Below, piece after piece: positions 3,469 through 29,356 of a stretch of DNA of 64,000 bases. The notes beneath the pieces are model-generated. The model did no database searches, was not told the DNA's origin, and was given only the letters and a program-made list of their open reading frames with translations. The stretch spans positions 930,001 through 994,000 of the forward strand of contig JAKGBX010000001.1 in assembly GCA_021555075.1 (NCBI GenBank). Direction: 5' to 3'. Every line of letters starts with the position of its first letter. Position 1 is the first letter of the stretch. The translations under genes were made by a program, and so were the position numbers. This DNA comes from Rhodobacteraceae bacterium LMO-JJ12. GTDB taxonomy: Bacteria > Pseudomonadota > Alphaproteobacteria > Rhodobacterales > Rhodobacteraceae.

Positions 3469-3539
3469 AAAATTGATTCTGCGCAATCCTTGGGGCGTGA
3501 CCCGGGCAATGACCTGAGGCCGTGAACAGGGAGAAGATC

Positions 3540-5834
3540 ATGCGCGTTGCTTGTTTGGGAGGCGGTCCTGCGGGGCTCTATTTTGCCATATCCATGAAGC
3601 TGCGCGATCCCTCGCATGAGGTGGTCGTGTTCGAGCGCAACAAGGCGGATGACACGTTCGGCTGGGGCGTGGTTCTGTCGGATGATGCGCTGGGGAACAT
3701 GACCGAGAATGACCCCGTTTCAGCGAAAGAGATTCGTGAAAATTTCGCCTATTGGGACGATATTGCGGTGATTCATGGGGGGCAACGCACGGTTTCGGGC
3801 GGGCATGGCTTTGCCGGGATCGGACGCAAGAAGATGCTGCTTTTGTTGCAGGAGCGCGCGCGTGATCTGGGGGTTGATCTGCGCTTTGAAACCGTGGTCG
3901 GGCCGGTCGAGGACTACACCGGTGACTATGATCTGGTGGTGGCTTGTGACGGGATCAATTCGGCGGTGCGCACCGCATGGGCCGAACATTTCAAGCCGGA
4001 CGTGGACGTGCGCGAATGCAAGTTCATCTGGCTAGGCACACATCAGAAATTCGACGATGCCTTTACCTTTATTTTCGAGCGCACCGAGCATGGCTGGGTC
4101 TGGGTGCATGCCTATCAGTTTGATGACGACACCGCGACGGTGATCGTGGAATGCCAGCAGGACACCTGGGACAAGTTCGGGTTTCAGGACATGACCAAAG
4201 AAGAGATCATCGCCAAATGCGAGGAGATTTTTGCCGATCATCTGGACGGTCACAAGCTGATCTCGAACGCCAATCATTTGCGCGGTGCGGCGGTGTTCAT
4301 GAATTTCCCGCGGGTGCTCTGCGAGAAATGGCACCATGAGAATGTCGTGCTTTTGGGTGATGCCTCGGCGACGGCGCATTTTTCGATTGGGTCCGGCTCT
4401 AGGTTGGCGTTTGATTCCGCGATTGCGCTGGCCGAGTTGGTCAATACCGAAGCCAGTATGGAGCGCGCGTTTGAGCGGTATCAGGATGAGCGGCGGCTGG
4501 AAGTGTTGCGTCTGCAATCCGCGGCGCGCAACAGTTTGGAATGGTTCGAGCAGGTGGAACGCTATCTCGATATGGACCCGGTGCAGTTCAACTATTCGCT
4601 GCTGACGCGCTCGCAGAGGATTTCCCACGAAAACCTGCGGCTTCGTGACCCGGAATGGCTTGAAAGTGCCGAGCGGTGGTTCATGGATCAGGCCGGGGTG
4701 GCGGGGGATGCGCCGGTGCGCGCGCCCATGTTCACGCCTTACAAACTGCGCGATATGGCGTTGAAAAACCGCGTCGTTGTCTCGCCCATGGCGCAATACA
4801 AGGCGGTTGATGGCTGTCCGACCGATTGGCATTTGATCCACTATGGCGAGCGCGCCAAGGGCGGCGCGGGGCTGGTCTATACCGAGATGACCTGTGTATC
4901 GCCGGAAGGGCGGATCACGCCGGGCTGTCCGGGGCTTTATGCGCCCGAACATGAGGCGGCGTGGGCGCGGCTGGTTGATTTTGTGCATGGCGAGACAGAA
5001 GCGAAGATCTGTTGTCAGATCGGCCATTCCGGGCGCAAGGGGTCGACCCAGTTGGGTTGGGAGGTGATGGATGCGCCGCTCAAGGAGGGCAATTGGGAGT
5101 GCGTGTCGGCCTCGGCAATTGCGTGGTCAAAGGGCAATGCCACCCCGCGAGAGATTACACGGGCCGAGATGGACGCGGTGAAGGGTCAATTTGTCGCCGC
5201 AGCCGAAATGGCGGGGCGCGCGGGCTTTGACATGATCGAGCTGCACGCTGCGCATGGTTATCTGATCTCGTCGTTCATCTCGCCGCTGTCGAACCGCCGT
5301 ACGGATGCGTATGGAGGGAGCCTGGAAAACCGCATGCGCTATCCTCTGGAGGTGTTCGCGGCGATGCGCGCGGTCTGGCCTGAAGGCAAGCCGATGTCGG
5401 TGCGCATTTCAGCCAATGACTGGGTTGGTGAGGCCGGGGTAACGCCGGATGAGGCGGTGGAAATTGCGGCCATGTTCCGCGTTGCGGGGGCCGATATTAT
5501 CGACGTGTCTGCCGGGCAGACTTCGGTTGAGGCGCGGCCCGTTTATGGCCGGATGTTCCAGACGCCATTTTCTGACCGCATCCGCAACGAGGCAGGAATT
5601 TCGACCATGGCGGTGGGCAATATCTATGAGGCCGATCATGCCAACTCGATCTTGATGGCGGGGCGGGCCGATCTGGTGGCGGTGGGGCGGCCGCATCTGG
5701 CCGACCCGTATTGGACGCTGCATGAGGCTGCGCGCATCGGAGACCGGCAGGGTGTATGGCCGCGCCCTTATGAGGCCGGGCGCGATCAGGCCTGGCGGCT
5801 GGCAGATCGGGAAGCGGAGATGGAACGGGCATGA
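3540..5834 (+). CDS. abmA: 2-aminobenzoyl-CoA monooxygenase/reductase (salicylyl-CoA 5-hydroxylase-like fusion)
   Basis: A 764-residue two-domain flavoprotein. Residues 1 to about 390 are a class A FAD monooxygenase with the dinucleotide motif [10 protein letters not shown] at 7-16 and the FAD motif [18 protein letters not shown]. Residues from about 400 to 760 are an Old Yellow Enzyme-type FMN reductase ([21 protein letters not shown]). This fusion hydroxylates and then hydride-reduces 2-aminobenzoyl-CoA without ring cleavage in Azoarcus evansii; salicylyl-CoA 5-hydroxylases share the fold. The ligase downstream and kynA upstream favour anthraniloyl-CoA. The start is ATG 3540 because AGGGAG lies 7 bases before it; an in-frame GTG at 3522 has no such site. 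Confidence 0.88.
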
Positions 5835-7179: not shown

Positions 7180-8340
7180 ATGGCTGATCGGAGTTTTCTG
7201 GACTGGCCGTTTTTTGAGGATCGGCACAAGGCGTTGGCCGAGCGGTTGGAGGATTGGGCGGCGGGCGCGCTGGACGCGATTGACCATTCCGACACCGATG
7301 CGGCCTGTCGCGCGCTGGTCACGACGCTGGGGCGCGATGGTTGGTTGCAGCCGACCGGGGCAGAGGGCGATGAGGTGCTGGATGTGCGCACGCTCTGCCT
7401 GATCCGCGAGACCTTGGCGCGCCATGATGGGTTGGCGGATTTCGCCTTTGCCATGCAGGGGTTGGGGACCGGGGCGATTTCGCTTTTTGGCAACGCGGAG
7501 CAGAAAGCGGAGTGGTTGCCCCAGACGCGTTCGGGGCGCGCGATTTCGGCCTTTGCGTTGACCGAGCCGCAATCGGGGTCGGATGTGGCCAATTCGACCA
7601 TGACGGCGACGCCCGATGGTGATGATTATGTGCTGAGCGGCGAAAAGACATGGATTTCCAACGGTGGAATTGCGGATGTCTATACCCTGTTTGCGCGCAC
7701 GGGTGAGGGGCCGGGGGCCAAGGGGCTTAGCGCCTTTGTCGTGTCGGCCGGTTTGCCGGGGTTTGAGGTGGTTGAGCGGCTGGAGACCATTGCGCCGCAT
7801 CCGCTGGCGACGTTGCGCTTTAGCAATTGCCGTATTCCTAAAACGGCAATGTTGGGCGCGCCGGGGCAGGGGTTTCGCATCGCGATGTCGGTGCTTGATG
7901 TGTTCCGATCGACCGTGGCGGCGGCGGCGTTGGGGTTTGCGCGCCGCGCGCTGGACGAGGCATTGGGGCGGGTCGCCACACGCGAAGTTCAGGGTGCGCC
8001 GCTCTTTGAGTTGCAGATGGTGCAGGGGCATATAGCCGATATGGCGCTGGATGTGGATGCCGCCGCACTGTTGGTTTATCGCGCGGCCTGGGCCAAGGAT
8101 TCGGGGGCGGCGCGGGTGACGCGCGAGGCGGCGATGGCCAAACTTTTCTCGACCGATCAGGCGCAGTTGGTGATTGATCGCGCGGTGCAGTTGCATGGCG
8201 GTGACGGGGTGAAATCCGGTCAGAAGGTTGAGGAACTTTACCGCGATATCAGGGCGTTGCGGATTTATGAAGGCGCGTCGGACGTGCAGCGTGTGGTCAT
8301 TGCACGCCAGACGATGGGCGCATTTCAGGGAGCAAGATGA
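7180..8340 (+). CDS. Acyl-CoA dehydrogenase
   Basis: FAD-dependent acyl-CoA dehydrogenase of 386 residues, full length. Signatures are [17 protein letters not shown] near residue 125 and [17 protein letters not shown] near 160, with the C-terminal helical bundle carrying [20 protein letters not shown], the region of the catalytic base and nucleotide contacts. It introduces a double bond into a CoA thioester and passes electrons to ETF. It sits inside the anthranilate operon, 66 bases after the hydratase and overlapping the ligase by four bases, so its substrate is probably a reduced ring or ring-opened CoA ester. Confidence 0.92.
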
Positions 8341-9956
8341 TGTTGGGACCGAGCGCACATATCGACACGTTTGCACGTGATAACCTGCCACCCCGCGACC
8401 AGTGGCCCGATTTTCTGCTGGATGGGTTTCAATATCCTGACCTGCTGAACGCGGGGTATGAGTTGACCGATGCGATGGTGGCCAAGGGGTTTGGCGATCA
8501 CACGGCCTTGATCGGCAACGGGCGGCAGCGGACCTATAAGGAGTTGACCGACTGGACCAACCGGTTGGCGCATGTGTTGGTTGAGGATCTGGGGGTGCGC
8601 CCCGGCAACCGGGTGCTGATCCGTTCGGCCAACAATCCGGCGATGGTGGCGTGTTGGCTGGCGGCGACCAAGGCGGGGGCGGTGGTGGTCAACACCATGC
8701 CGATGCTGCGTGCGGGCGAGTTGGCGGCGATTGTCGACAAGGCCGAGATCAGCCATGCGCTGTGCGATACGCGGCTGATGGAGGACATGGACGCCTGCGC
8801 CAAGAAGAGCCGGTTTCTGAACCATGTGGTCGGGTTTGACGGCACGTCGAACCATGACGCCGAGTTGGACCGGATGGCGCTGGAAAAATCCGTGCGGTTC
8901 GAGGCGGTGCAGACCGGGCGCGATGATGTGGCGCTTTTGGGCTTTACCTCGGGGACCACGGGCGAGCCGAAGGCGGCGATGCATTTTCACCGCGACCTTC
9001 TGATCATCGCGGATGGCTATGCGCGCGAGGTGCTGAATGTGCAGCCCGAAGATGTGTTCATTGGCTCGCCGCCGCTGGCGTTTACTTTTGGCCTTGGCGG
9101 GCTGGCGATCTTTCCGTTGCGGTTTGGTGCGACGGCGACCCTTTTGGAACAGGCGACGCCGGCGAACCTGATCGAGATTATCGAAAAATACAAAGCGACG
9201 GTGTGTTTTACCGCGCCGACCGCCTATCGCGCGATGATGCGGGCGATGGAGGAGGGGGCAGACCTGAGCAGTCTGCGCGCGGCCGTTTCGGCGGGCGAGA
9301 CGCTGCCCGCGCCAGTTTATGACGAATGGATGAAGAAGACCGGCAAGCCGATGCTTGACGGGATCGGTGCAACCGAGATGCTGCATATCTTCATTACCAA
9401 TCGGTTTGATGATCACCGCCCGGCCTGCACCGGCAAGCCAGTGACGGGCTATGAGGTGAAGATCATCGACGAGAGCGGCGAAGAGTTGCCGCGCGGCGAG
9501 GTTGGGCGGCTGGCGGTGCGGGGGCCGACGGGGTGTCGCTATCTCGCGGATGCGCGTCAGACGGCCTATGTGCAGGACGGCTGGAACATCACGGGCGACA
9601 GTTTCGCGCAGGATGAAGACGGCTATCTGCATTTTGCCGCCCGCAATGACGATATGATCGTCTCGTCAGGCTACAACATCGCCGGGCCAGAGGTGGAGGC
9701 GGCCCTGTTGTCGCATCCGGCGGTTGTGGAATGCGGCGTGATCGGCGCGCCGGACAGTGCGCGGGGCCGTATCGTGGAAGCCTATGTGGTGTTGGCCGAG
9801 GGGTGGGCGGCGGACGCGCGCACGGTGAAAAAGCTTCAGGACCATGTGAAGGATACCATCGCGCCCTATAAATATCCGCGCAGCGTGAGGTTTATCGACG
9901 CATTGCCAAAAACCCAGACCGGCAAGATACAACGGTTCAGGTTGCGACAGGAATGA
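8337..9956 (+). CDS. abmG: 2-aminobenzoate-CoA ligase (AMP-forming)
   Basis: ANL-superfamily ligase of 539 residues. The adenylate loop is [18 protein letters not shown] (about 202-219), followed by the substrate segment ISAGETLP-like [15 protein letters not shown], the [10 protein letters not shown] motif, and the C-terminal lysine region [12 protein letters not shown]. The sequence pattern is that of benzoate/2-aminobenzoate ligases rather than fatty-acyl ligases. It activates anthranilate to anthraniloyl-CoA, the substrate of the upstream fusion enzyme. Start ATG overlaps the preceding stop (ATGA). Benzoate or hydroxybenzoate activation cannot be excluded from sequence alone. Confidence 0.88.
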
Positions 9957-9966
9957 GGAGTGGCGC

Positions 9967-10380
9967 ATGAGTTTCGTTTTCACGCAGAAGGTGAAGTTTC
10001 GCCATTGCGACGCGGCGGGGATCGTTTTTTATCCGCGCTTCTTCGAGATGATCAACGACACCATCGAAGAGTTCTTCGAGGTTGACTTGGCCTATCCGTT
10101 TGCAGCGATGCATCCGGCGCATGGCATACCGACTGCGCAGATTGAGACGAAGTTCAAGGCGCCCTGTCGGTTGGGGGATGTCTTGCAGATCCATCTTGAG
10201 TGCACCCGGCTTGGCACGACCAGCATGGGGTTGGCGCTTCGCGCAGAATGCGACGGAGAGTTGCGGTTTTCGGCGCAATCGACGCTGGTTCATATCAATG
10301 CAAAGACTGGCCCGGAGCCGTGGCCGAACAACGTGCGCGACAACATTCGCGTGGTCGTGACAGAGGCCGCAGCATCGTAA
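9967..10380 (+). CDS. 4-hydroxybenzoyl-CoA thioesterase-family protein
   Basis: Hot-dog-fold thioesterase of 137 residues. The N-terminal motif RHCDAAGIVFYPRFFEMIND carries the conserved Asp (residue 15) used as nucleophile or base in the 4HBT family. Ten bases separate it from the ligase, so it is in the same operon. It probably releases CoA from dead-end aryl-CoA esters and protects the CoA pool, as proposed for thioesterases in the Azoarcus 2-aminobenzoate clusters. Confidence 0.9.
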   Translation: MSFVFTQKVKFRHCDAAGIVFYPRFFEMINDTIEEFFEVDLAYPFAAMHPAHGIPTAQIETKFKAPCRLGDVLQIHLECTRLGTTSMGLALRAECDGELRFSAQSTLVHINAKTGPEPWPNNVRDNIRVVVTEAAAS

Positions 10381-10452
10381 CAACGGTCGCCTGACAGCGC
10401 CAAAATAACCGTAAGTGCCAATACTTACGCAGAACAGTCCAAGGAGAGAGAC

Positions 10453-10851
10453 ATGCCAAACGAGATCATTCACCCCGAGGGCTGGGCCCCGGCCAAAGGG
10501 TATTCCAACGGTGTTCTGGCCGAGAACGGAACCTTGTATATCGGCGGGCAAGTCGGCTGGAACGCCGAGGAAGTGTTTGAGCATGACGATTTCATCGGCC
10601 AGATGGAACAGGTGCTCAGGAACATCATGGCCATCGTCGAGGCGGCGGGCGGCACGGCGGCGGATATCGTGCGCATGACGTGGTTTGTGACCGACAAGCA
10701 GGAATATCTGGCCAAGCAGCGCGAGATTGGCGAGACCTATCGCAAGGTGATCGGGCGCAATTTCCCGGCCATGAGCCTTGTTGTGGTGGCGGCATTGGTC
10801 GAAGAGGGCGCACTTCTTGAGATCGAGGCAACGGCGGTTTTGTCGCAATAA
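10453..10851 (+). CDS. RidA-family protein (imine/enamine deaminase)
   Basis: A 132-residue YjgF/RidA protein with the family segments ENGTLYIGGQVGWN near residue 22 and GGTAADIVRMTWFVTDK near 60, and the conserved Arg in that strand. A strong ribosome site AAGGAGAG precedes the ATG. RidA proteins hydrolyse reactive enamines and imines. The product of the monooxygenase/reductase retains the amino group on a partly reduced ring, so a role in its deamination is plausible; this is inferred. It may be transcribed with the abm genes (72-base gap). Confidence 0.92.
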   Translation: MPNEIIHPEGWAPAKGYSNGVLAENGTLYIGGQVGWNAEEVFEHDDFIGQMEQVLRNIMAIVEAAGGTAADIVRMTWFVTDKQEYLAKQREIGETYRKVIGRNFPAMSLVVVAALVEEGALLEIEATAVLSQ

Positions 10852-10900
10852 GTCGCCTCTGACGGGGCTTGACGAGGGCCGTTGCGGGTGTAACAAAAAA

Positions 10901-11015
10901 GGGGCAACTTCAAGGGCGCTGAGCGCGGTCCGGGCATCGGACAACCGCGGCGCTGGCCCCTGTCGTGTAAAAGAGTTGCCACGACGTCAGAGGGGCTGTC
11001 CCACAGGAGCCCCTG
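10901..11015 (+). promoter_or_regulatory. Structured leader of tnaA (candidate attenuator/RNA switch)
   Basis: Three stems can form before tnaA. GGCAACT (10903-10909) pairs with AGTTGCC (10974-10980). Within it AGCGCGGTCCG (about 10920-10930) pairs with the CGG...ACCGCgGCGCT segment ending at 10954. AGGGGCT (10991-10997) pairs with AGCCCCT (11008-11014), trapping the Shine-Dalgarno AGGAG (11005-11009). The GCCCC at 10956-10960 could instead pair with GGGGC at 10901 or 10992, so alternative folds exist. There is no ATG in the leader and no Trp-containing leader peptide. Confidence 0.5.
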
Positions 11016-12386
11016 ATGACGACCATTTTCGAACCCTTCCGTATCAAATCTGTTGAGCCCATTCGCATGACCACGCTGGATGAGCGCAAAGCATTGATGC
11101 GCAAGGCAAATTACAACCTGTTCACCCTGCATTCCGATGATGTGATGATCGACCTGTTGACCGATAGCGGCACAGGCGCGATGAGTTCTGAGCAATGGGC
11201 GGCGATCATGCGTGGCGATGAAAGCTATGCCGGGTCGCCCTCGTTCTATCGCTTTGAGGCGGCGGTAAAAAACCTGATGCCGTTCAAGCATGTGATCCCG
11301 GTGCATCAGGGCCGTGCGGCGGAAGCGATACTTTTCTCAATTCTGGGCGGCGCGGGGCGAAATGTGCCGAGCAACACCCATTTTGACACCACGCGCGGCA
11401 ATATCGAAGCTTCGGGGGCCATGGCCACCGATCTGGTGATTGACGAGGGCAGAGATCCGCAATCGCTGCACCCGTTCAAGGGCAACATGGATCTCGACAA
11501 GCTGCGCAGCTTTTTGCAGACCCAAGGGGATGCGGTGCCTTGTGTGATGCTGACCATCACCAATAATGCGGGCGGCGGGCAACCCGTGAGCCTTGAAAAC
11601 ATCCGCGAAGTGGCGGCGATGGCGCGTGAGTTTGGCAAGCCCTTCATCATCGACGGTTGTCGGTTTGCCGAAAACGCATGGTTCATCAAGCAGCGCGAGG
11701 CGGGGCAGCAAGACCGCTCGATCACCGAGATCGTGCGCGATTGCTTTGCCGATGCCGATGCAATGACGATGAGCGCCAAGAAGGATGCCTTTGGCAATAT
11801 CGGCGGTTGGCTTGCGCTGAACGATGATGAGATGGCCGAAGCGGCGCGCGCGCATCTGATCCGCACCGAAGGTTTCCCGACCTATGGCGGGATGGCGGGG
11901 CGCGATCTTGAGGCGGTGGCGCAGGGGTTGGCCGAAATCGTTGACGAGGATTACCTGCGGTATCGCATCCGCACCAATGCTTATATTATCGAGCGGTTGG
12001 ATGCGCTGGGCGTGCCGGTGGTCAAACCCGCGGGGGGGCATGCGGTGTTCATTGATGCGCGCGCGTGGCTTTCGCATATTGATCCGCTCTCGTATCCCGG
12101 TCAGGCGGTCGCGGTGGCGCTCTATGAACTGGGTGGCATTCGGGGCTGTGAAATTGGCACGGTGATGTTTGGCCGTCATCCAGATGGCAGCGAAACACCT
12201 GCGGCGATGGACCTTGTGCGGCTGGCCTTTCCGCGTCGGACATATACCCAGAGCCATGCAGATTATCTGGTCGAGGTATTTGCTGAATTGGCCGCGATGA
12301 AAGACAGCCTGAGGGGGTATCGCATCACTTGGGAGCAAAAGCTGATGCGGCATTTCACCTGTAAGTTTGAGCCTCTGGAGGCATAA
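11016..12386 (+). CDS. tnaA: Tryptophanase
   Basis: PLP-dependent beta-eliminating lyase of 456 residues that converts L-tryptophan to indole, pyruvate and ammonia. The PLP lysine lies in MSAKKDAFGN, and the fold signatures DLLTDSGTGAMS and HQGRAAEAILFS are present. Tyrosine phenol-lyase is close, but two specificity positions are of the tryptophanase type: Ile in CEIGTVMFGR, where the phenol-lyase has Arg381, and His in RHFTCKF, where the phenol-lyase has Phe448. The related cysteine desulfhydrase side activity of TnaA may matter for the ArsR neighbour. It follows the RidA gene with a 164-base structured leader. Confidence 0.9.
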   Translation: MTTIFEPFRIKSVEPIRMTTLDERKALMRKANYNLFTLHSDDVMIDLLTDSGTGAMSSEQWAAIMRGDESYAGSPSFYRFEAAVKNLMPFKHVIPVHQGRAAEAILFSILGGAGRNVPSNTHFDTTRGNIEASGAMATDLVIDEGRDPQSLHPFKGNMDLDKLRSFLQTQGDAVPCVMLTITNNAGGGQPVSLENIREVAAMAREFGKPFIIDGCRFAENAWFIKQREAGQQDRSITEIVRDCFADADAMTMSAKKDAFGNIGGWLALNDDEMAEAARAHLIRTEGFPTYGGMAGRDLEAVAQGLAEIVDEDYLRYRIRTNAYIIERLDALGVPVVKPAGGHAVFIDARAWLSHIDPLSYPGQAVAVALYELGGIRGCEIGTVMFGRHPDGSETPAAMDLVRLAFPRRTYTQSHADYLVEVFAELAAMKDSLRGYRITWEQKLMRHFTCKFEPLEA

Positions 12387-12440
12387 AACGCAGCTGCGTG
12401 TCCCGCCTGCGCCCGATTTCAGGTGCGGCGGGGCGCGTGT

Positions 12441-12824
12441 TCAGGAACACTCGACAGGATCATCGGGGCGGGCGCCGTCGGGGCTGCAAAACAGCCGATA
12501 GAGCAGTGAGATCACCTCGTAGGTGCTCTCGTCCGCGAGGCTGTAAAAGACCGTCTTGCCGTCGCGGCGGGTCGACACCAGCCCTTCTTCGCGCAGGCGC
12601 GCCAGCATCTGGCTGACGGCGGCCTGACGGATTTCCAGCAGGGTTTCCAACTCGCCCACCGATTTTTCGCCCGAGCCAAGATGGCACAGGATCATCAGCC
12701 GACCCTCATGGGCCAGCGTCTTGAGATAGGCGGCGGCGCTGGCCGCACTACGGGCCATTTCCGTCGGTGGGGCAGGAGGGGTTTTGAGGTCCAACGCAGG
12801 TGTCCTTCGTCTTGATGTATTCAT
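12441..12824 (-). CDS. ArsR-family regulator, SqrR/BigR-like
   Basis: Winged-helix dimer of 127 residues. The HTH is GEKSVGELETLLEIRQAAVS with wing STRRDGKTVFYSL. The sequence MILCHLGSGEKSVGELE and two cysteines at C47 and C113 (66 apart) match the arrangement of SqrR (C41/C107) and BigR, which sense persulfides through a polysulfide bridge. A third Cys is at 126. It is convergent with tnaA. No sulfide-oxidation gene is in the window, so its regulon is unknown; TnaA-type release of sulfide from cysteine is one speculative link. Ordinary metal-sensing ArsR motifs (CxC) are absent. Confidence 0.85.
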   Translation of the reverse strand: MNTSRRRTPALDLKTPPAPPTEMARSAASAAAYLKTLAHEGRLMILCHLGSGEKSVGELETLLEIRQAAVSQMLARLREEGLVSTRRDGKTVFYSLADESTYEVISLLYRLFCSPDGARPDDPVECS

Positions 12825-12897
12825 CGTTTAGCATGTGGGGCGTCGTTTGGCGAGTTCAAGCGCAGAATGGCGTGCGAAGGCGGATTGTAGAGGCAGG

Positions 12898-14130
12898 TCA
12901 GTCGGATTTGGCCGGTGCGCCGCCCTGGAAATTATTGCCATTTTGATAGTCGCAGGGCGCTTCCTGCATTTGCAGATGCAGATGGTTGCCACTGTAGGGA
13001 TGGGCGCGGGCCAGTGCTTCGTCGACTTCGATGCCGAGGCCGGGGGCGTCGGGCGGGGTGACAAAGCCGTTTTCCACCGTGATCGTGCCCTTGATCAGAT
13101 CGTGATGGAACGGGGTTTCGATGCTTTCAACCATCAGGATGTTGGGGATTGAAGCGGCAAGTTGCACGTTGGCGGCCCATTCGATCGGTCCGGCATAGAG
13201 ATGCGGGGCGATCTGCGCGTTGAAGACTTCGGCAATGGCGGCGACCTTCTTCATCTCCCAGATGCCACCGGCACGGCCAAGGGCGGGTTGCAGGATTTCG
13301 GCGGCCCCGGCACGCAACACGGCGGCGAACTCGGCCTTGGTGGTCATCCGTTCGCCGGTCGCTACGGGGATACGCACATTGCGCGCCACGCGGGCCATGT
13401 CCTCGATATTGTCGGGCGGTGTGGGTTCTTCGAACCAAAGCGGGGAATAAGGCTCAAGCGCTTGTCCAAGACGGATGGCGCCTGCGGTGTTGAATTGTCC
13501 GTGGGTGCCAAAAAGCAGATCGGCGCGGTTTCCGACAGCCTCGCGGATCAACTTGCAGAATTCTACCGAGGTGGTGATGTCAGACATTGCGGGCATATGG
13601 CCGCCGCGCATTGTGTAGGGGCCGGCAGGGTCGAATTTGACTGCGGTGTAGCCTTTCTCGACCATGGCGAGGGCTGAAACGGCGGCGGCTTGCGGGTCGG
13701 TCCAGAAGGTCGCCATATCCTGATCGGGCTGAGGATAGAGATAGGTATAGGCGCGGATGCGCTCATTCATCCGCCCACCGAGTAAGGCATGCACCGGACG
13801 CTCGCGAGCCTTGCCGATGATGTCCCAGCAGGCGATTTCCAGACCGGAAAAGGCACCCATCACCGTTAGATCGGGGCGCTGGGTAAAGCCGCTGGAATAG
13901 GCACGGCGAAACATCAGCTCGATATTCTCGGGGTTTTCACCGGCCATATGACGGACAAAAACATCTTCGATCACGGCTTTCATGGCGGTGGGGCCGACAG
14001 ACGAGGCATAGCATTCGCCCCAACCGACGATGCCTGTGTCGGTGGTCAGCTTGACCAGAATCCAATAGCGCCCACCCCAGCCGGGTGCGGGCGGCGCGGT
14101 GACAATCACATCGAGATCGGCGAGTTTCAT
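12898..14130 (-). CDS. Enolase-superfamily dehydratase (mandelate racemase/galactonate dehydratase-like)
   Basis: TIM-barrel enzyme of 410 residues with an N-terminal capping domain (WGGRYWILVKLTTDTGIVGW). Barrel motifs are TAVKFDPAG (K165), WFEEPTPPD (E234/E235), VATGERM (E260) and APHLYAGP (H310). These fit acid-sugar dehydratases or racemases that abstract the alpha proton of a carboxylate. Where galactonate dehydratase has Asp-Phe-His-Gly as first metal ligand and acid, this protein reads GTHG (208-211), so the ligand Asp appears to be replaced. The gene is divergent from a GNAT gene 27 bases away. Substrate not deducible. Confidence 0.83.
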   Translation of the reverse strand: MKLADLDVIVTAPPAPGWGGRYWILVKLTTDTGIVGWGECYASSVGPTAMKAVIEDVFVRHMAGENPENIELMFRRAYSSGFTQRPDLTVMGAFSGLEIACWDIIGKARERPVHALLGGRMNERIRAYTYLYPQPDQDMATFWTDPQAAAVSALAMVEKGYTAVKFDPAGPYTMRGGHMPAMSDITTSVEFCKLIREAVGNRADLLFGTHGQFNTAGAIRLGQALEPYSPLWFEEPTPPDNIEDMARVARNVRIPVATGERMTTKAEFAAVLRAGAAEILQPALGRAGGIWEMKKVAAIAEVFNAQIAPHLYAGPIEWAANVQLAASIPNILMVESIETPFHHDLIKGTITVENGFVTPPDAPGLGIEVDEALARAHPYSGNHLHLQMQEAPCDYQNGNNFQGGAPAKSD

Positions 14131-24448: not shown

Positions 24449-24644
24449 TCCTCATTCTCCCCTGGCCCCTTGGTCGCTGGGGCCGCTTGGAAGGTAATAT
24501 AGGGGTTGAAGCGGGGTGTATTCAATTAGTTTCAGCCCGAAGATGTCGCAGAGGGCTGTACGAAGGCGGTCTTGCAGAGCCACTCGGGCGAATGCTAGAG
24601 GGGGTAGACCGATAAAATGGCGAAGGCAAAGGACCGCAAAACTG

Positions 24645-25154
24645 ATGGCCCAATATCCGAGCAGCTTCACCCGTGACGACCTGTTGAAATGCGCCCGTGG
24701 AGAGCTTTTTGGCCCTGGCAATGCGCAGCTTCCTGAGCCGCCGATGCTTATGATGGACCGGATCACGGATATTTCCGGCGATGGCGGAGCGCATGGCAAG
24801 GGTCATGTCGTGGCCGAGTTCGATATCAAGCCTGACCTGTGGTTCTTTGAGTGTCACTTCCCGGGCAATCCGATCATGCCCGGCTGTCTGGGGCTTGATG
24901 GGCTGTGGCAGTTGACCGGGTTCAACCTTGGCTGGCGTGGCTGGCCCGGGCGCGGCTATGCGCTGGGTGTTGGCGAAGTGAAGCTGAAGGGGATGGTGCG
25001 CCCTGACCGCAAGATGCTGACCTACAAGATTGATTTCACCAAGGCGATTCAGACGCGTCGCCTGACCATGGGCGTGGCCGACGGGATCGTCGAAGCCGAT
25101 GGCGAGGTGATCTATGAGGTCAAGGATATGAAGGTCGCCCTGAGCGAAAGCTAA
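24645..25154 (+). CDS. fabA: 3-hydroxydecanoyl-ACP dehydratase/isomerase
   Basis: Hot-dog-fold enzyme of 169 residues that dehydrates 3-hydroxydecanoyl-ACP and isomerises the trans-2 to the cis-3 double bond, starting unsaturated fatty acid synthesis. Catalytic His71 is in [13 protein letters not shown] and Asp85 in [10 protein letters not shown], as in E. coli. The start ATG 24645 gives [14 protein letters not shown]. Its partner fabB is separated from it by a minus-strand NOR-like gene. Confidence 0.96.
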
Positions 25155-25365
25155 AGGCGCAGGAAGGGTCGAGTATTCCCCTGACTTCGCGGCCGAATTG
25201 CGCCCGTTAATACCTGCTCTCCTGGTAATCCCGCGAAAACGCGCCCGGATAATGAAGGGCTGACTCCACAAACATTTCAGGCAAGTAATGGCGGCGCTTT
25301 CGCCCGACCTGGGGGGCGCTTGTCTGCGCGAGTCCCTTTGGCCGGGCGAAAGTTTTGTTTCTGGT

Positions 25366-27738
25366 CTATTCGGCGGAAACCGTGGGGGCGTCGGATGTGT
25401 TGGCCCAGCCATCGTTATTCGGCGACCATTCCCCGTCACCTTCTTTGGTGGTTTTGCGAATACGTGTGGCGCGGCTGAGGATGAACCATACCAATGGGAT
25501 CACGCCTCCGAGGGTGAAGACGAGGCCACCCCAGCTGCGCATCATTGTCAACGTGCGGAACACTTCGCCCTGAATGACTTCCTGGCTTCTGGCATACCAG
25601 AACCCTTCTTCAAGTACGACCCAGAATTGATAGAGCCCGGCAGGCAGCAGATCGAGGAACATCATCATCGCGAGACCAATGTTCATTGACCAGAACGAGA
25701 TACGGATCAGCTTGCGGTTCCATGCCTTGTCTTTGAACAGGTGCTGACAGCAAAACAGCATGCCACCGAGCGCGATATTGCCTTTGACGCCAAACATCGC
25801 GGCATGGGCGTGATTGCCGGTGAGATAGGTGGAATGTTCGAAATAGTTGATGATCGGTAGGTTGATCATCGACCCGAACACCCCGGCGCCAAACACGTTC
25901 CAGAAGTTCACCGCCAGCACGAACAGCCAGACTTCGTTCATTACAAAGCTCTGTTGGCCGTCCTTGTGGAACTGGGCGGCGCGCCCCTTCTCCTGGCGCA
26001 TCCGCCAGGCATCGAGCGTGAGCAGCAAGAGCGGCAACACCTGTAGCGTGGAAAAGACGCTGCCAAAGGCGATGACGCCGGTTGGCTTGGCGATCCAGTA
26101 GAAGTTATGCGCGATGCCAACGGTGGCGGTGAGCAAAAACAGCATGACCGCGAGGAAGATCACGCGTTCGGCCATGATCCGGGTGATCAGACCCATCTGC
26201 ACCAGCATGTAGGCGACGATCACAGTGGTGAAGACCTCAAAGGTTACTTCGACCCACATATGCACCACCATCCAGCGCCAGAAATCAGAGATGGCAAAGT
26301 TGGATTCGGGCGTGACCATCAGGCCGAAGAACAGGAAGAAAACCATCACGCTGCTGCCATAGAGAAGCCAGGCGGGCACCGACCAAAGGTTTTCAAGCGT
26401 GAGCCATGGCTTGATGCCGCGATAGATGATCACGATCCACAACGAGAAGGCTGCCAGCAGCAGTATTTGGAAGGCCCGGCCCATTTCCAGGAATTCCCAG
26501 CCTTGGCTGCCGAACCAATAGGCGGCTTTGCCTGTCAGAATTCCGGTCTGCCCGGCATAGATGCCGATGACGGACCCGGCGCCGACGATGAAGCAGCAGG
26601 CAAACAGCAGCTCGATCAGGACGCCCTGACCGCGCGGCACGGGGCCAAGACGCGGCAAAAAGAAGATCGTATAACCGACCCAGCACATGAAGAACCAATA
26701 GATCTGCAACAGCGTATGATAGCTGCGCAAGACGGTGAACGGGATGATATCCCCCAGAAATATCCCGCCGGGGCGCACGAAATCCGATGCCGCCAAAATG
26801 CCAACCGTAACCTGCAGCCCAAATGCCAGCATTGCGAGGGCAAAGAATTTATAGGTGGCGCGCTGGGTCTTGCGGACATTGCCATTTTCGAGATCGTAGG
26901 TGGTCAGCGACCTATCCTGACTGCCGGTAAACGGGTCGTATTGCAGTGATTTCATCTGGCCATAAATATAGAGCACGAGACCGATGCCGAGGAACAGTGC
27001 CAAGACTGACAGGATGCTCCAGAAGACAACGGCAGGTGTCGGCGAGTTGCCAACTTCGGGGTCGTAGGGCCAGTTGTGGGTATAGCTATAGGTTTCGCCT
27101 GGCCGATGGGCCGCGGCAACCCAGCCGCCCCAGAAGAAATAGGCCGACAGATCGCGCAGCTGTGTCGGGTCGGTCAGGTATCCGGTCTGAAACAGTTCAG
27201 GATAGTCAGGATCGGTGAACATCCGGCTGAAATGCGTGGCGACGGTCTCAAACCCGGCGACTTGGCCCTCGGTCAGTGTTACGGTGCCTGCCGCTTCGTC
27301 CCAGGTGTTGGTCTTGAGTTCGCGCCGTGTGCGGGCGGCGGCGGCGTCATGCGCTATCGGATCAGGGGCAGTTCCGTCCTCTGTCGCGCCGACGTAATGT
27401 GCCACCATGCCGGTGTACGTATAGTGCAGGGCATCGGCGGTGAAATCGGGTCCGCGCTCGGCCCCGTCACCCCAGAAGGAACCATAGCTCATCAGGCCGC
27501 GCAGGTGGAAAACTTCCTGACCCGCCATGATCTGTTCGCGTGAGAATACGGTGGTTCCATCCTCAGTCACAAAATCACCAAGCGGTGGGGCGCTGTCATA
27601 GGTCGCGTCGCCCATGTAAACCAAACCACTAAGGCAGATAATAACGACGGCTGCGAAATGGACGCCCCAGTATTTCTTGTTCAGCAGAATGGTCGCAAGA
27701 TTGCCGAACCGCTTTTTGTCGCGCGCAACGTCAGTCAT
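25366..27738 (-). CDS. Quinol-type nitric oxide reductase homologue with altered active site (Nod-like)
   Basis: Haem-copper-superfamily membrane protein of 790 residues with the qNOR layout: N-terminal helix, periplasmic cytochrome-c-like domain (about 45-235) and about 13 further helices. Haem ligands remain (H341; H643 and H645 in GNHAHAAMFG), as do FeB ligands H493 and E497 (VVHMWVEV) and H544. The next FeB ligand is Asn545 (AHNFYW instead of HHYYW). The Glu 21 residues later is Gln566 (FSTLQVLP). The quinol-site positions H/E/F/D of Geobacillus qNOR read S318, R322, I326 and G738. These changes recall those reported for NO dismutases. The gene sits between fabA and fabB. Confidence 0.85.
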   Translation of the reverse strand: MTDVARDKKRFGNLATILLNKKYWGVHFAAVVIICLSGLVYMGDATYDSAPPLGDFVTEDGTTVFSREQIMAGQEVFHLRGLMSYGSFWGDGAERGPDFTADALHYTYTGMVAHYVGATEDGTAPDPIAHDAAAARTRRELKTNTWDEAAGTVTLTEGQVAGFETVATHFSRMFTDPDYPELFQTGYLTDPTQLRDLSAYFFWGGWVAAAHRPGETYSYTHNWPYDPEVGNSPTPAVVFWSILSVLALFLGIGLVLYIYGQMKSLQYDPFTGSQDRSLTTYDLENGNVRKTQRATYKFFALAMLAFGLQVTVGILAASDFVRPGGIFLGDIIPFTVLRSYHTLLQIYWFFMCWVGYTIFFLPRLGPVPRGQGVLIELLFACCFIVGAGSVIGIYAGQTGILTGKAAYWFGSQGWEFLEMGRAFQILLLAAFSLWIVIIYRGIKPWLTLENLWSVPAWLLYGSSVMVFFLFFGLMVTPESNFAISDFWRWMVVHMWVEVTFEVFTTVIVAYMLVQMGLITRIMAERVIFLAVMLFLLTATVGIAHNFYWIAKPTGVIAFGSVFSTLQVLPLLLLTLDAWRMRQEKGRAAQFHKDGQQSFVMNEVWLFVLAVNFWNVFGAGVFGSMINLPIINYFEHSTYLTGNHAHAAMFGVKGNIALGGMLFCCQHLFKDKAWNRKLIRISFWSMNIGLAMMMFLDLLPAGLYQFWVVLEEGFWYARSQEVIQGEVFRTLTMMRSWGGLVFTLGGVIPLVWFILSRATRIRKTTKEGDGEWSPNNDGWANTSDAPTVSAE

Positions 27739-27780
27739 CAGATACCCTCAATTAATGCGTGCCGCACAGCATCCGATTGC

Positions 27781-27800
27781 GGTGACCAGATATGATCACC
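27781..27800. promoter_or_regulatory. Imperfect palindrome upstream of the NOR-like gene
   Basis: GGTGACCAGATATGATCACC lies 43 bases before the NOR-like start. The arms GGTGA and TCACC plus the central ATAT are symmetric; two pairs mismatch. It is a candidate operator at the position of the core promoter. The regulator is unknown. Confidence 0.45.
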
Positions 27801-27863
27801 GCGCAAGGGGGCACCTGCGACAAATTTCTTGGGGACCCTAAGGATGGTGCCTCTGGTGGGAAA

Positions 27864-27875
27864 TGACGGCCGTCA
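27864..27875. promoter_or_regulatory. Perfect palindrome TGACGGCCGTCA in the NOR-like/fabB gap
   Basis: The perfect 12-bp dyad lies in AATGACGGCCGTCAAT, 126 bases before the NOR-like start and about 250 before fabB. It has the look of a Crp/Fnr-type site (NnrR/Dnr targets are TTG...CAA dyads), but the family cannot be fixed by eye. The rest of the 388-base gap shows no gene. Confidence 0.45.
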
Positions 27876-28126
27876 ATATTCGCCATTCTGATTGCGTGCT
27901 AAGCCTCAGAATTGGGGTGACTCGCCGGTATCGGGGACTGATTTCGTTGCAAAATGTTCAGTCCATGACGCGCGTGCCGTGTCAAAGGCGACGGATGAGC
28001 GGCGTCGTGAATTGCGCTTGTCCGGGCATGGACGACTTCGGGCGGCAGGATCGCTGATTGCAATCTGGTTGCGCCAAACTGCGTGGCTCTCTATCACGGG
28101 AATTGAAATAAGAAGGGAGTATGCCC

Positions 28127-29356
28127 ATGCGCCGCGTTGTCGTTACCGGTTTGGGAATCGTGTCGTCCATCGGGACAAATGCCGAAGAAGTCGCGGCGTC
28201 GCTGAAGGCGGGTCGTTCCGGGGTCTCGGCCAACGAGGCGATGGTCGAGCATGGCTTTCGTTCGCAGATTGCAGGGACCATCGACATTGACATTGCGGCT
28301 CATGTGGACAAACGCAGCCTGCGCTTCATGGGGCCTGGGGCGGCCTATGCCCATATTGCCATGGGTCAGGCGATTGCCGATGCTGGTCTGGAAGAAAGCG
28401 ATATCTCTGATCCGCGCACCGGGCTTGTGGCAGGTTCGGGCGGTCCCTCGACCAGCGCGCTGCTGGTCGCACATCAAACGGTTCTGAAAACCGGCGCGAC
28501 CAAGCGGATTGGGCCTTTTGCAGTGCCCAAGTGCATGTCGTCTACGATCTCGGCCAATCTGGCGACGGCCTATAAGATCAAGGGCATCAACTATTCGATC
28601 ACCTCGGCCTGTTCGACATCTCTGCATTGCATCGGCAATGCGGCTGAGCAGATCATGATGGGCAAGCAAGACGTGATGTTTGCCGGGGGCGGAGAAGAGC
28701 TTGACTGGACGCTGTCGTGCCTGTTTGACGCGATGGGTGCGATGTCTTCGAAATTCAACGACACGCCCGAGAAGGCCTCGCGCGCCTTTGATGCCGATCG
28801 CGACGGGTTCGTGATTTCGGGGGGCGGCGGTATTGTCGTGCTGGAAGAGCTGGAACATGCGCGCGCACGCGGTGCGAAAATCTATGCCGAGGTGACAGGT
28901 TTTGCCGCCACGTCGGATGGTCACGATATGGTCGCCCCGTCGGGCGAAGGCGGTGAGCGGGCCATGCGGCTGGCGCTTCAGACCCTGCCGGAAGGGCGCG
29001 CCGTGAGCTATATCAACGCGCACGGCACTTCGACCCCGGTCGGCGATGTTGGCGAGGTCGAGGCGGTGCGCCGGGTGTTCGGGGAAGGCCATGTGCCGCC
29101 GATCAGTTCGACCAAGTCGATGACCGGCCACGCGCAGGGCGCGGCGGGCGCGCTTGAGACGATCTTCTGCTTGCTGGCACTGGAGGGCGATTTCATCATT
29201 CCGTCGATTAATGTCGAAACGCTCGATCCCGCGATCAAGCCGGGAGAGGTGGCAACCAAGCTTGTCGAAGGTGCTGGGCTCGATTCAGTAATGACCAATT
29301 CCTTTGGCTTTGGCGGCACAAACGGGTCTATGATCCTTTCCAAGTATAACGAGTAG
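28127..29356 (+). CDS. fabB: 3-oxoacyl-ACP synthase I
   Basis: Condensing enzyme of 409 residues that elongates saturated and cis-3-decenoyl acyl-ACPs. The nucleophile is C162 in ITSACSTSLHC, and the two catalytic histidines lie in INAHGTSTPVGD and SSTKSMTGHAQG. ATG 28127 is chosen over ATG 28121 because AAGGGAG ends 7-8 bases before it, while the earlier ATG lies almost on the Shine-Dalgarno. fabI follows after 7 bases. Confidence 0.96.
   Translation: MRRVVVTGLGIVSSIGTNAEEVAASLKAGRSGVSANEAMVEHGFRSQIAGTIDIDIAAHVDKRSLRFMGPGAAYAHIAMGQAIADAGLEESDISDPRTGLVAGSGGPSTSALLVAHQTVLKTGATKRIGPFAVPKCMSSTISANLATAYKIKGINYSITSACSTSLHCIGNAAEQIMMGKQDVMFAGGGEELDWTLSCLFDAMGAMSSKFNDTPEKASRAFDADRDGFVISGGGGIVVLEELEHARARGAKIYAEVTGFAATSDGHDMVAPSGEGGERAMRLALQTLPEGRAVSYINAHGTSTPVGDVGEVEAVRRVFGEGHVPPISSTKSMTGHAQGAAGALETIFCLLALEGDFIIPSINVETLDPAIKPGEVATKLVEGAGLDSVMTNSFGFGGTNGSMILSKYNE

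Follow-up and report, generated by a model that had tools for sequence, protein, structure and literature searches.

Described systems

Putative NO dismutases (Nod) have been described by Ettwig et al. in 2012 as proteins in which, relative to the quinol-fed NO reductases (qNOR), a His is replaced by Asn, a Glu is replaced by Gln and a proper quinol site is absent (PMC3413370). The formation of O2 by Nod and the use of that O2 have been debated since 2010, partly since the best-known hosts grow poorly. A Terasakiella-related bin with a nod gene was reported in 2016 (PMC4703780). A study of lake MAGs published in 2026 considers the function of NOD to be unproven for the family, and describes no clear oxygen-consuming system beside its nod genes (PMC13386854). 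While the family is known, Rhodobacteraceae are barely reported as hosts. A literature search for Roseobacter and NO dismutation found no report, subscription papers being outside its scope and an earlier mention in a table being possible; where papers mention both this family and nitric oxide dismutase, the passages concerned assign no nod to it.

In the current analysis we describe a nod gene in Rhodobacteraceae bacterium LMO-JJ12, an organism of marine type. It lies in a stretch of 64,000 nucleotides, which is referred to as the window. Methylomirabilis has tandem nod genes (L107), whereas the genome of the window encodes a single copy, which is situated inside a fatty-acid gene cluster.

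Domain organisation and fold of the encoded protein

The features of the locus are collected in Table 1. The reading frame of nod is uninterrupted, and its product comprises two domains, PF22085 and PF00115, whose matches both exceed the curated cut-offs. No CXXCH haem-c motif is found on inspection of the sequence, the cytochrome-c-like domain included. The gene is under purifying selection, with dN/dS values of 0.08-0.09 against the homologue from Cypionkella and of 0.16-0.17 against two other homologues, for which dS is greater than 1.

An AlphaFold2 model of the protein, for which 27 Nods served as input, has a mean pLDDT of 81 and a pTM of 0.84. The top Foldseek match of this model in the PDB is the qNOR of Geobacillus (3AYF; TM 0.87/0.91, 32% identity), after which other qNORs and then cNOR and cbb3 oxidases are ranked. 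Since the best matches are 3AYF and other qNORs, the predicted fold is that of qNOR; the model holds no metals and says nothing decisive on chemistry.

Canonical qNORs (3AYF, AxqNOR and NmqNOR) resemble the window protein in fold (TM 0.78-0.87 by query length), in the cytochrome-c-like domain, and in the haem ligands and the Glu pair common to both. They differ from it in sequence (about 32% identity) and belong to a separate clade, and the window protein has Asn for the FeB His and Gln for Glu and has lost the quinol His, Glu and Asp. The cNOR of the same host (NorCB) is likewise an NO enzyme of the haem-copper superfamily, but it consists of two subunits, is fed by cytochrome c, has a three-His FeB site and is encoded separately from nod.

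Table 1. Features of the nod locus, with positions counted from the first letter of the window
Feature	Position	Strand	Basis or remark
nod, putative NO dismutase, qNOR fold	25366..27738	(-)	790 aa, ATG start
Cytochrome-c-like periplasmic domain, PF22085, residues 56-225	27064..27573	(-)	domain search and sequence
Haem-copper oxidase-type catalytic core, PF00115, residues 294-740	25519..26859	(-)	domain search, model, PDB match
S318 codon, quinol-site His328 replaced	26785..26787	(-)	alignments
R322 codon, quinol-site Glu332 replaced	26773..26775	(-)	alignments
N545 codon, FeB ligand His560 (Geobacillus qNOR) replaced	26104..26106	(-)	alignments
Q566 codon, active-site Glu581 replaced	26041..26043	(-)	alignments
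G738 codon, quinol-site Asp746 replaced	25525..25527	(-)	alignments
Inserted segment with nod, between fabA and fabB; absent from same-genus genome G352	25161..28060	(.)	genome comparison
fabA, left flank of insertion	24516..25154	(+)	
fabB, right flank of insertion	28121..29356	(+)	
fabI, after fabB	29364-30152		

Residues of the active site and of the quinol site

The residues were mapped position by position onto Geobacillus qNOR (3AYF) by a HMMER alignment. H493, E497, E501 and H544 correspond to H508, E512, E516 and H559 and are kept, whereas S318, R322, I326, N545, Q566 and G738 take the places of H328, E332, F336, H560, E581 and D746. An earlier note on this DNA, made from the letters alone, had proposed that the pair H544-N545 stands in place of the two-His FeB pair, and that Gln566 replaces the conserved Glu; both proposals agree with the mapping. 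The four quinol-site changes that it listed are all real and exactly numbered, but I326 is uninformative as a sign of Nod because the position of F336 varies freely among genuine qNORs (L, V, M, I, Y or F). The retention of the haem ligands and of E497/E501 is likewise borne out by alignment with qNORs and Nods; the residues retained are H341, H493, H544, H643, H645, E497 and E501.

The window protein thus shows the changes by which Nod is recognised, namely Asn for the FeB His (H560), Gln for the active-site Glu (E581), and S318, R322 and G738 in place of the quinol residues H328, E332 and D746, together with the remaining histidines, the qNOR fold and the absence of haem c. The three-His FeB site and catalytic Glu of a qNOR are missing from it (N545, Q566), as are the quinol-site His, Glu and Asp. 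All 38 of the qNORs compared, which come from Alphaproteobacteria and other Pseudomonadota and are 31-36% identical to the window protein, have H, E/D, H, E and D at positions 318, 322, 545, 566 and 738.

Relatives and phylogeny

Relatives were collected by scanning 84,980 species genomes once, with an alignment of alphaproteobacterial copies and the peptides QI[FY]WFFM and D[YF]WRWMV, which lie outside the diagnostic sites; this gave 80 loci. The approximately 80 relatives are 46-75% identical to the window protein. They include proteins of Roseovarius amoyensis GCL-8 (75%), an Antarcticimicrobium MAG (75%), Magnetovibrio blakemorei (69%), Terasakiella brassicae (65%) and Algoriphagus (48%). 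Full-length identity to the window protein is 60% for the Nod of HdN1 (FP929140, L110) and 58% for that of Candidatus Methylomirabilis; both share with it the H-N pair, the Gln, the lost quinol site, the remaining haem and metal ligands and the clade. The same signature is seen in the Nods of R. amoyensis GCL-8, the Antarcticimicrobium and Cypionkella MAGs, Magnetovibrio and Terasakiella (65-89% identical). A search of plasmid records revealed no Nod, the best match being 37%.

Every relative that covers these sites has the H-N pair and the Gln, and position 738 is nearly always Gly (Ala in L059, Ile in HdN1) and never Asp. The Nods of Bacteroidota (L115-L132) retain His at position 318, while their quinol-site Glu and Asp are both replaced by Gly; judged from these residues, they are a distinct sub-type.

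A tree of 44 Nods and 38 qNORs was obtained by a quick search with SH-aLRT support only and a midpoint root. The Nod side (SH-aLRT 100) holds the window protein and the Nods of HdN1 and Methylomirabilis, apart from the qNORs. On this side, the window protein clusters with those of R. amoyensis and Antarcticimicrobium (99), Terasakiella being next (96), so that its surroundings are first other Rhodobacteraceae and then Terasakiella and Magnetovibrio. Among the qNORs and at the stem of the Nods, long branches come together; the placement of the window protein, well inside the Nods, does not depend on them. The alignment and tree with qNORs and Nods, which are part of the check that the earlier note proposed, therefore place the protein inside the Nod clade and outside the qNORs. 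The suggestion of the earlier note that it is not a normal quinol-fed NO reductase and may be a Nod is strengthened both by the clade shared with HdN1 and Methylomirabilis and by the defining changes. By its sequence the window protein is almost certainly a Nod.

It was also considered that the protein could be an ordinary qNOR with errors of alignment or assembly, or a decaying copy. No evidence in its support was found. N545 and Q566 do not stem from misalignment, because the residues map exactly onto 3AYF, nor from chance or a sequencing slip, because every relative covering these positions shares N and Q, and 38/38 qNORs have H and E there. The intact frame, the dN/dS of 0.08-0.17 and the nesting within the Nod clade also speak against it. 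A misaligned member of the qNOR clade is excluded by the mapping and the tree, and the explanation as a whole is regarded as refuted, with virtually no probability left to it.

A protein that binds NO or O2 as a sensor, a scavenger or a transient store of NO, without dismutase turnover, would be compatible with the loss of electron input. The full haem and metal core is, however, kept across many phyla, which would hardly be needed for binding, and a signalling domain is absent; we regard such a role as improbable.

Insertion of nod between fabA and fabB

fabA, fabB and fabI follow one another with little space between them in 13 of the 15 relatives searched that hold fabB. In the window, fabA and fabB are separated by nod, which was inserted late and in reverse orientation. 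Homology to the genome G352 of the same genus ends at about 25160 and restarts at about 28060; the segment with which nod arrived therefore measures about 2.9 kb. G352, from which nod is absent, has at the same site an unrelated insert with a 445-aa ORF (L175:7325-9813), and the genome G002 has a third, shorter insert of about 1.26 kb of other sequence (L176:5057-6314). With different inserts in three genomes, the gap between fabA and fabB is a possible insertion hot spot.

Within the Rhodobacteraceae, nod is encoded in only 3 of 397 genomes (a set made up mostly of one genome per genus), and its carriers in this family have no common neighbours around the gene. The patchy distribution suggests that nod was acquired by horizontal transfer, though its base composition fits the host, GC and GC3 resembling those of the flanks. 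A search for the ends of a mobile element at the insert found no inverted repeats, and only chance-like direct repeats. The 382-bp gap before fabB, upstream of nod, has no FNR/NNR-type box, and the TTG-N8-CAA counts across the window are at chance level. In the host genome nod is not linked to nir, alkB or any oxygenase; this and the lack of an upstream box count against the dismutase reading.

Elsewhere in the window, a 770-aa fusion of FAD-monooxygenase-like and FMN oxidoreductase domains is encoded at 3522-5834 (+), with an acyl-CoA-ligase-like ORF nearby; its product is probably an O2-using aryl-CoA hydroxylase.

Nitrogen pathway of the host

The host genome encodes two cytochrome cd1 nitrite reductases (nirS), at C1:420.6 kb (L152:5626-7338(-)) and C2:731 kb (L155:5810-7564(+)), which are only about 43% identical to each other. 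The copy at C2:731 kb is accompanied by a nir biogenesis cluster and the copy at C1:420.6 kb stands apart. norC and norB with norQ/norD-like ORFs are situated at C2:683 kb, and a clade I nosZ at C2:839 kb. A search of the genome for NapA gave nothing above the curated cut-off; NarG gave no match with a beta-proteobacterial query, for which no positive control was run. With neither found, the pathway may start at nitrite, and from its gene content the host is probably a facultative nitrite denitrifier. The description "aerobic roseobacter" in the earlier note is incomplete, since an organism with nirS, norCB and nosZ is not a plain aerobe.

Two further observations concern the region of the C1 nirS. 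Its product is 67% identical to the NirS of a gammaproteobacterial MAG (L113:3304-4866), in which the gene is about 5 kb from nod. Encoded nearby (L151:13649-19373, C1 about 413-419 kb) is a molybdopterin oxidoreductase (913 aa), apparently together with an iron-sulfur subunit; it is neither NapA nor NarG.

The presence of nirS, norCB and nosZ implies that the host can supply NO and can remove it by the ordinary route, in contrast to Methylomirabilis, in which N2 is produced without an identifiable cNOR/NosZ route (PMC3413370). With cNOR and NosZ present, Nod is not needed for the removal of NO, which counts against a dismutase reading.

Neighbours of nod in other organisms

The alphaproteobacterial Nods each have their own neighbourhood. 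The nod gene of R. amoyensis comes after nir biogenesis genes, and that of Magnetovibrio is beside a gene for an FprA-type flavodiiron protein. A regulator of the Rrf2 type is encoded no more than 5 kb from nod in 14 loci of Bacteroidota (among L115-L132) and in L067, suggesting NsrR-like control by NO. In 17 gammaproteobacterial loci a MORN-type repeat protein is encoded near nod and in 7 a cytochrome b561 (e.g. L068, L110, L113).

The most interesting by-product of the analysis is an array in a sister lineage. On one contig of the Antarcticimicrobium MAG (L054), genes for a P450 (about 7323-8714), an alkB-type protein (8767-9918) and nod (10001-12373) follow each other on one strand, nod starting 82 bp past alkB, and a Crp/Fnr regulator (12417-13106 (-)) faces them. 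The only Pfam name for the AlkB-like protein is FA_desaturase; its identification as AlkB is suggested by the His boxes EHLLVHH, NYVEHYGL and LQRHADHH. An orthologous pair, 74% and 83% identical, is present in the host of the window at C1 about 322.1-324.7 kb (L178:17-2634), about 630 kb from nod. There the P450 gene (17-1498) and alkB (from 1498) overlap in their stop and start codons. R. amoyensis carries this pair as well.

The presence of AlkB alone is uninformative, as 338 of 397 Rhodobacteraceae genomes encode an AlkB-like protein. The group of alkB genes at least 70% identical occurs in 16 of the 397 genomes, among them 2 of the 3 that carry nod (one-sided Fisher p = 0.0045, with a cut-off chosen after the data had been seen). 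This co-occurrence is taken as a lead only, because of the post hoc cut-off, the tiny count and the window genome having been the starting point.

Taken together, the nir, flavodiiron, Rrf2 and P450-alkB neighbours fit a role of Nod in the metabolism of NO and O2. The NO-stress-type regulators and the flavodiiron protein would also suit an NO reductase with another donor, through a different quinone pocket or from a soluble protein, that makes N2O and perhaps detoxifies NO; the retained fold, haem ligands and E497/E501 pair are in line with this. Against it, the catalytic Glu is lost together with a ligand of FeB and all three strictly conserved quinol residues, and norCB is already present in the genome. 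We consider such a reductase unlikely, though less so than a role in binding only.

Possible role of Nod in the host

The reading that we favour, with moderate confidence, is that the window encodes a putative Nod that dismutates NO to N2 and O2 in the cell. Nod would be a membrane protein of the qNOR fold that contains haem b, haem b3 and a non-haem metal site and lacks a usable quinol site. At low oxygen NirS would provide NO, of which two molecules would be taken up at the haem b3/metal site and rearranged to N2 and O2 rather than reduced to N2O, because such a protein presumably cannot accept electrons from quinol. The O2 would be consumed intracellularly, the AlkB/P450 alkane-hydroxylase pair and the terminal oxidases being candidate users, and ordinary denitrification through norCB and nosZ would proceed in parallel.

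It is a tentative and rather doubtful extension of the dismutase reading that P450, alkB and nod form a module for intra-aerobic alkane oxidation in some Rhodobacteraceae, allowing hydroxylation without external O2. Nod would in this case pass O2 made from NirS-derived NO straight to AlkB/P450. The host genome holds the P450-alkB and nod parts at two places.

The occurrence of Nod in a genetically approachable denitrifying group, which includes the isolate R. amoyensis GCL-8, offers a test bed for the debated formation and use of O2. The P450-alkB-nod array is an oxygen-using neighbour of the kind that the 2026 survey lacked (PMC13386854), and provides a concrete and testable hypothesis.
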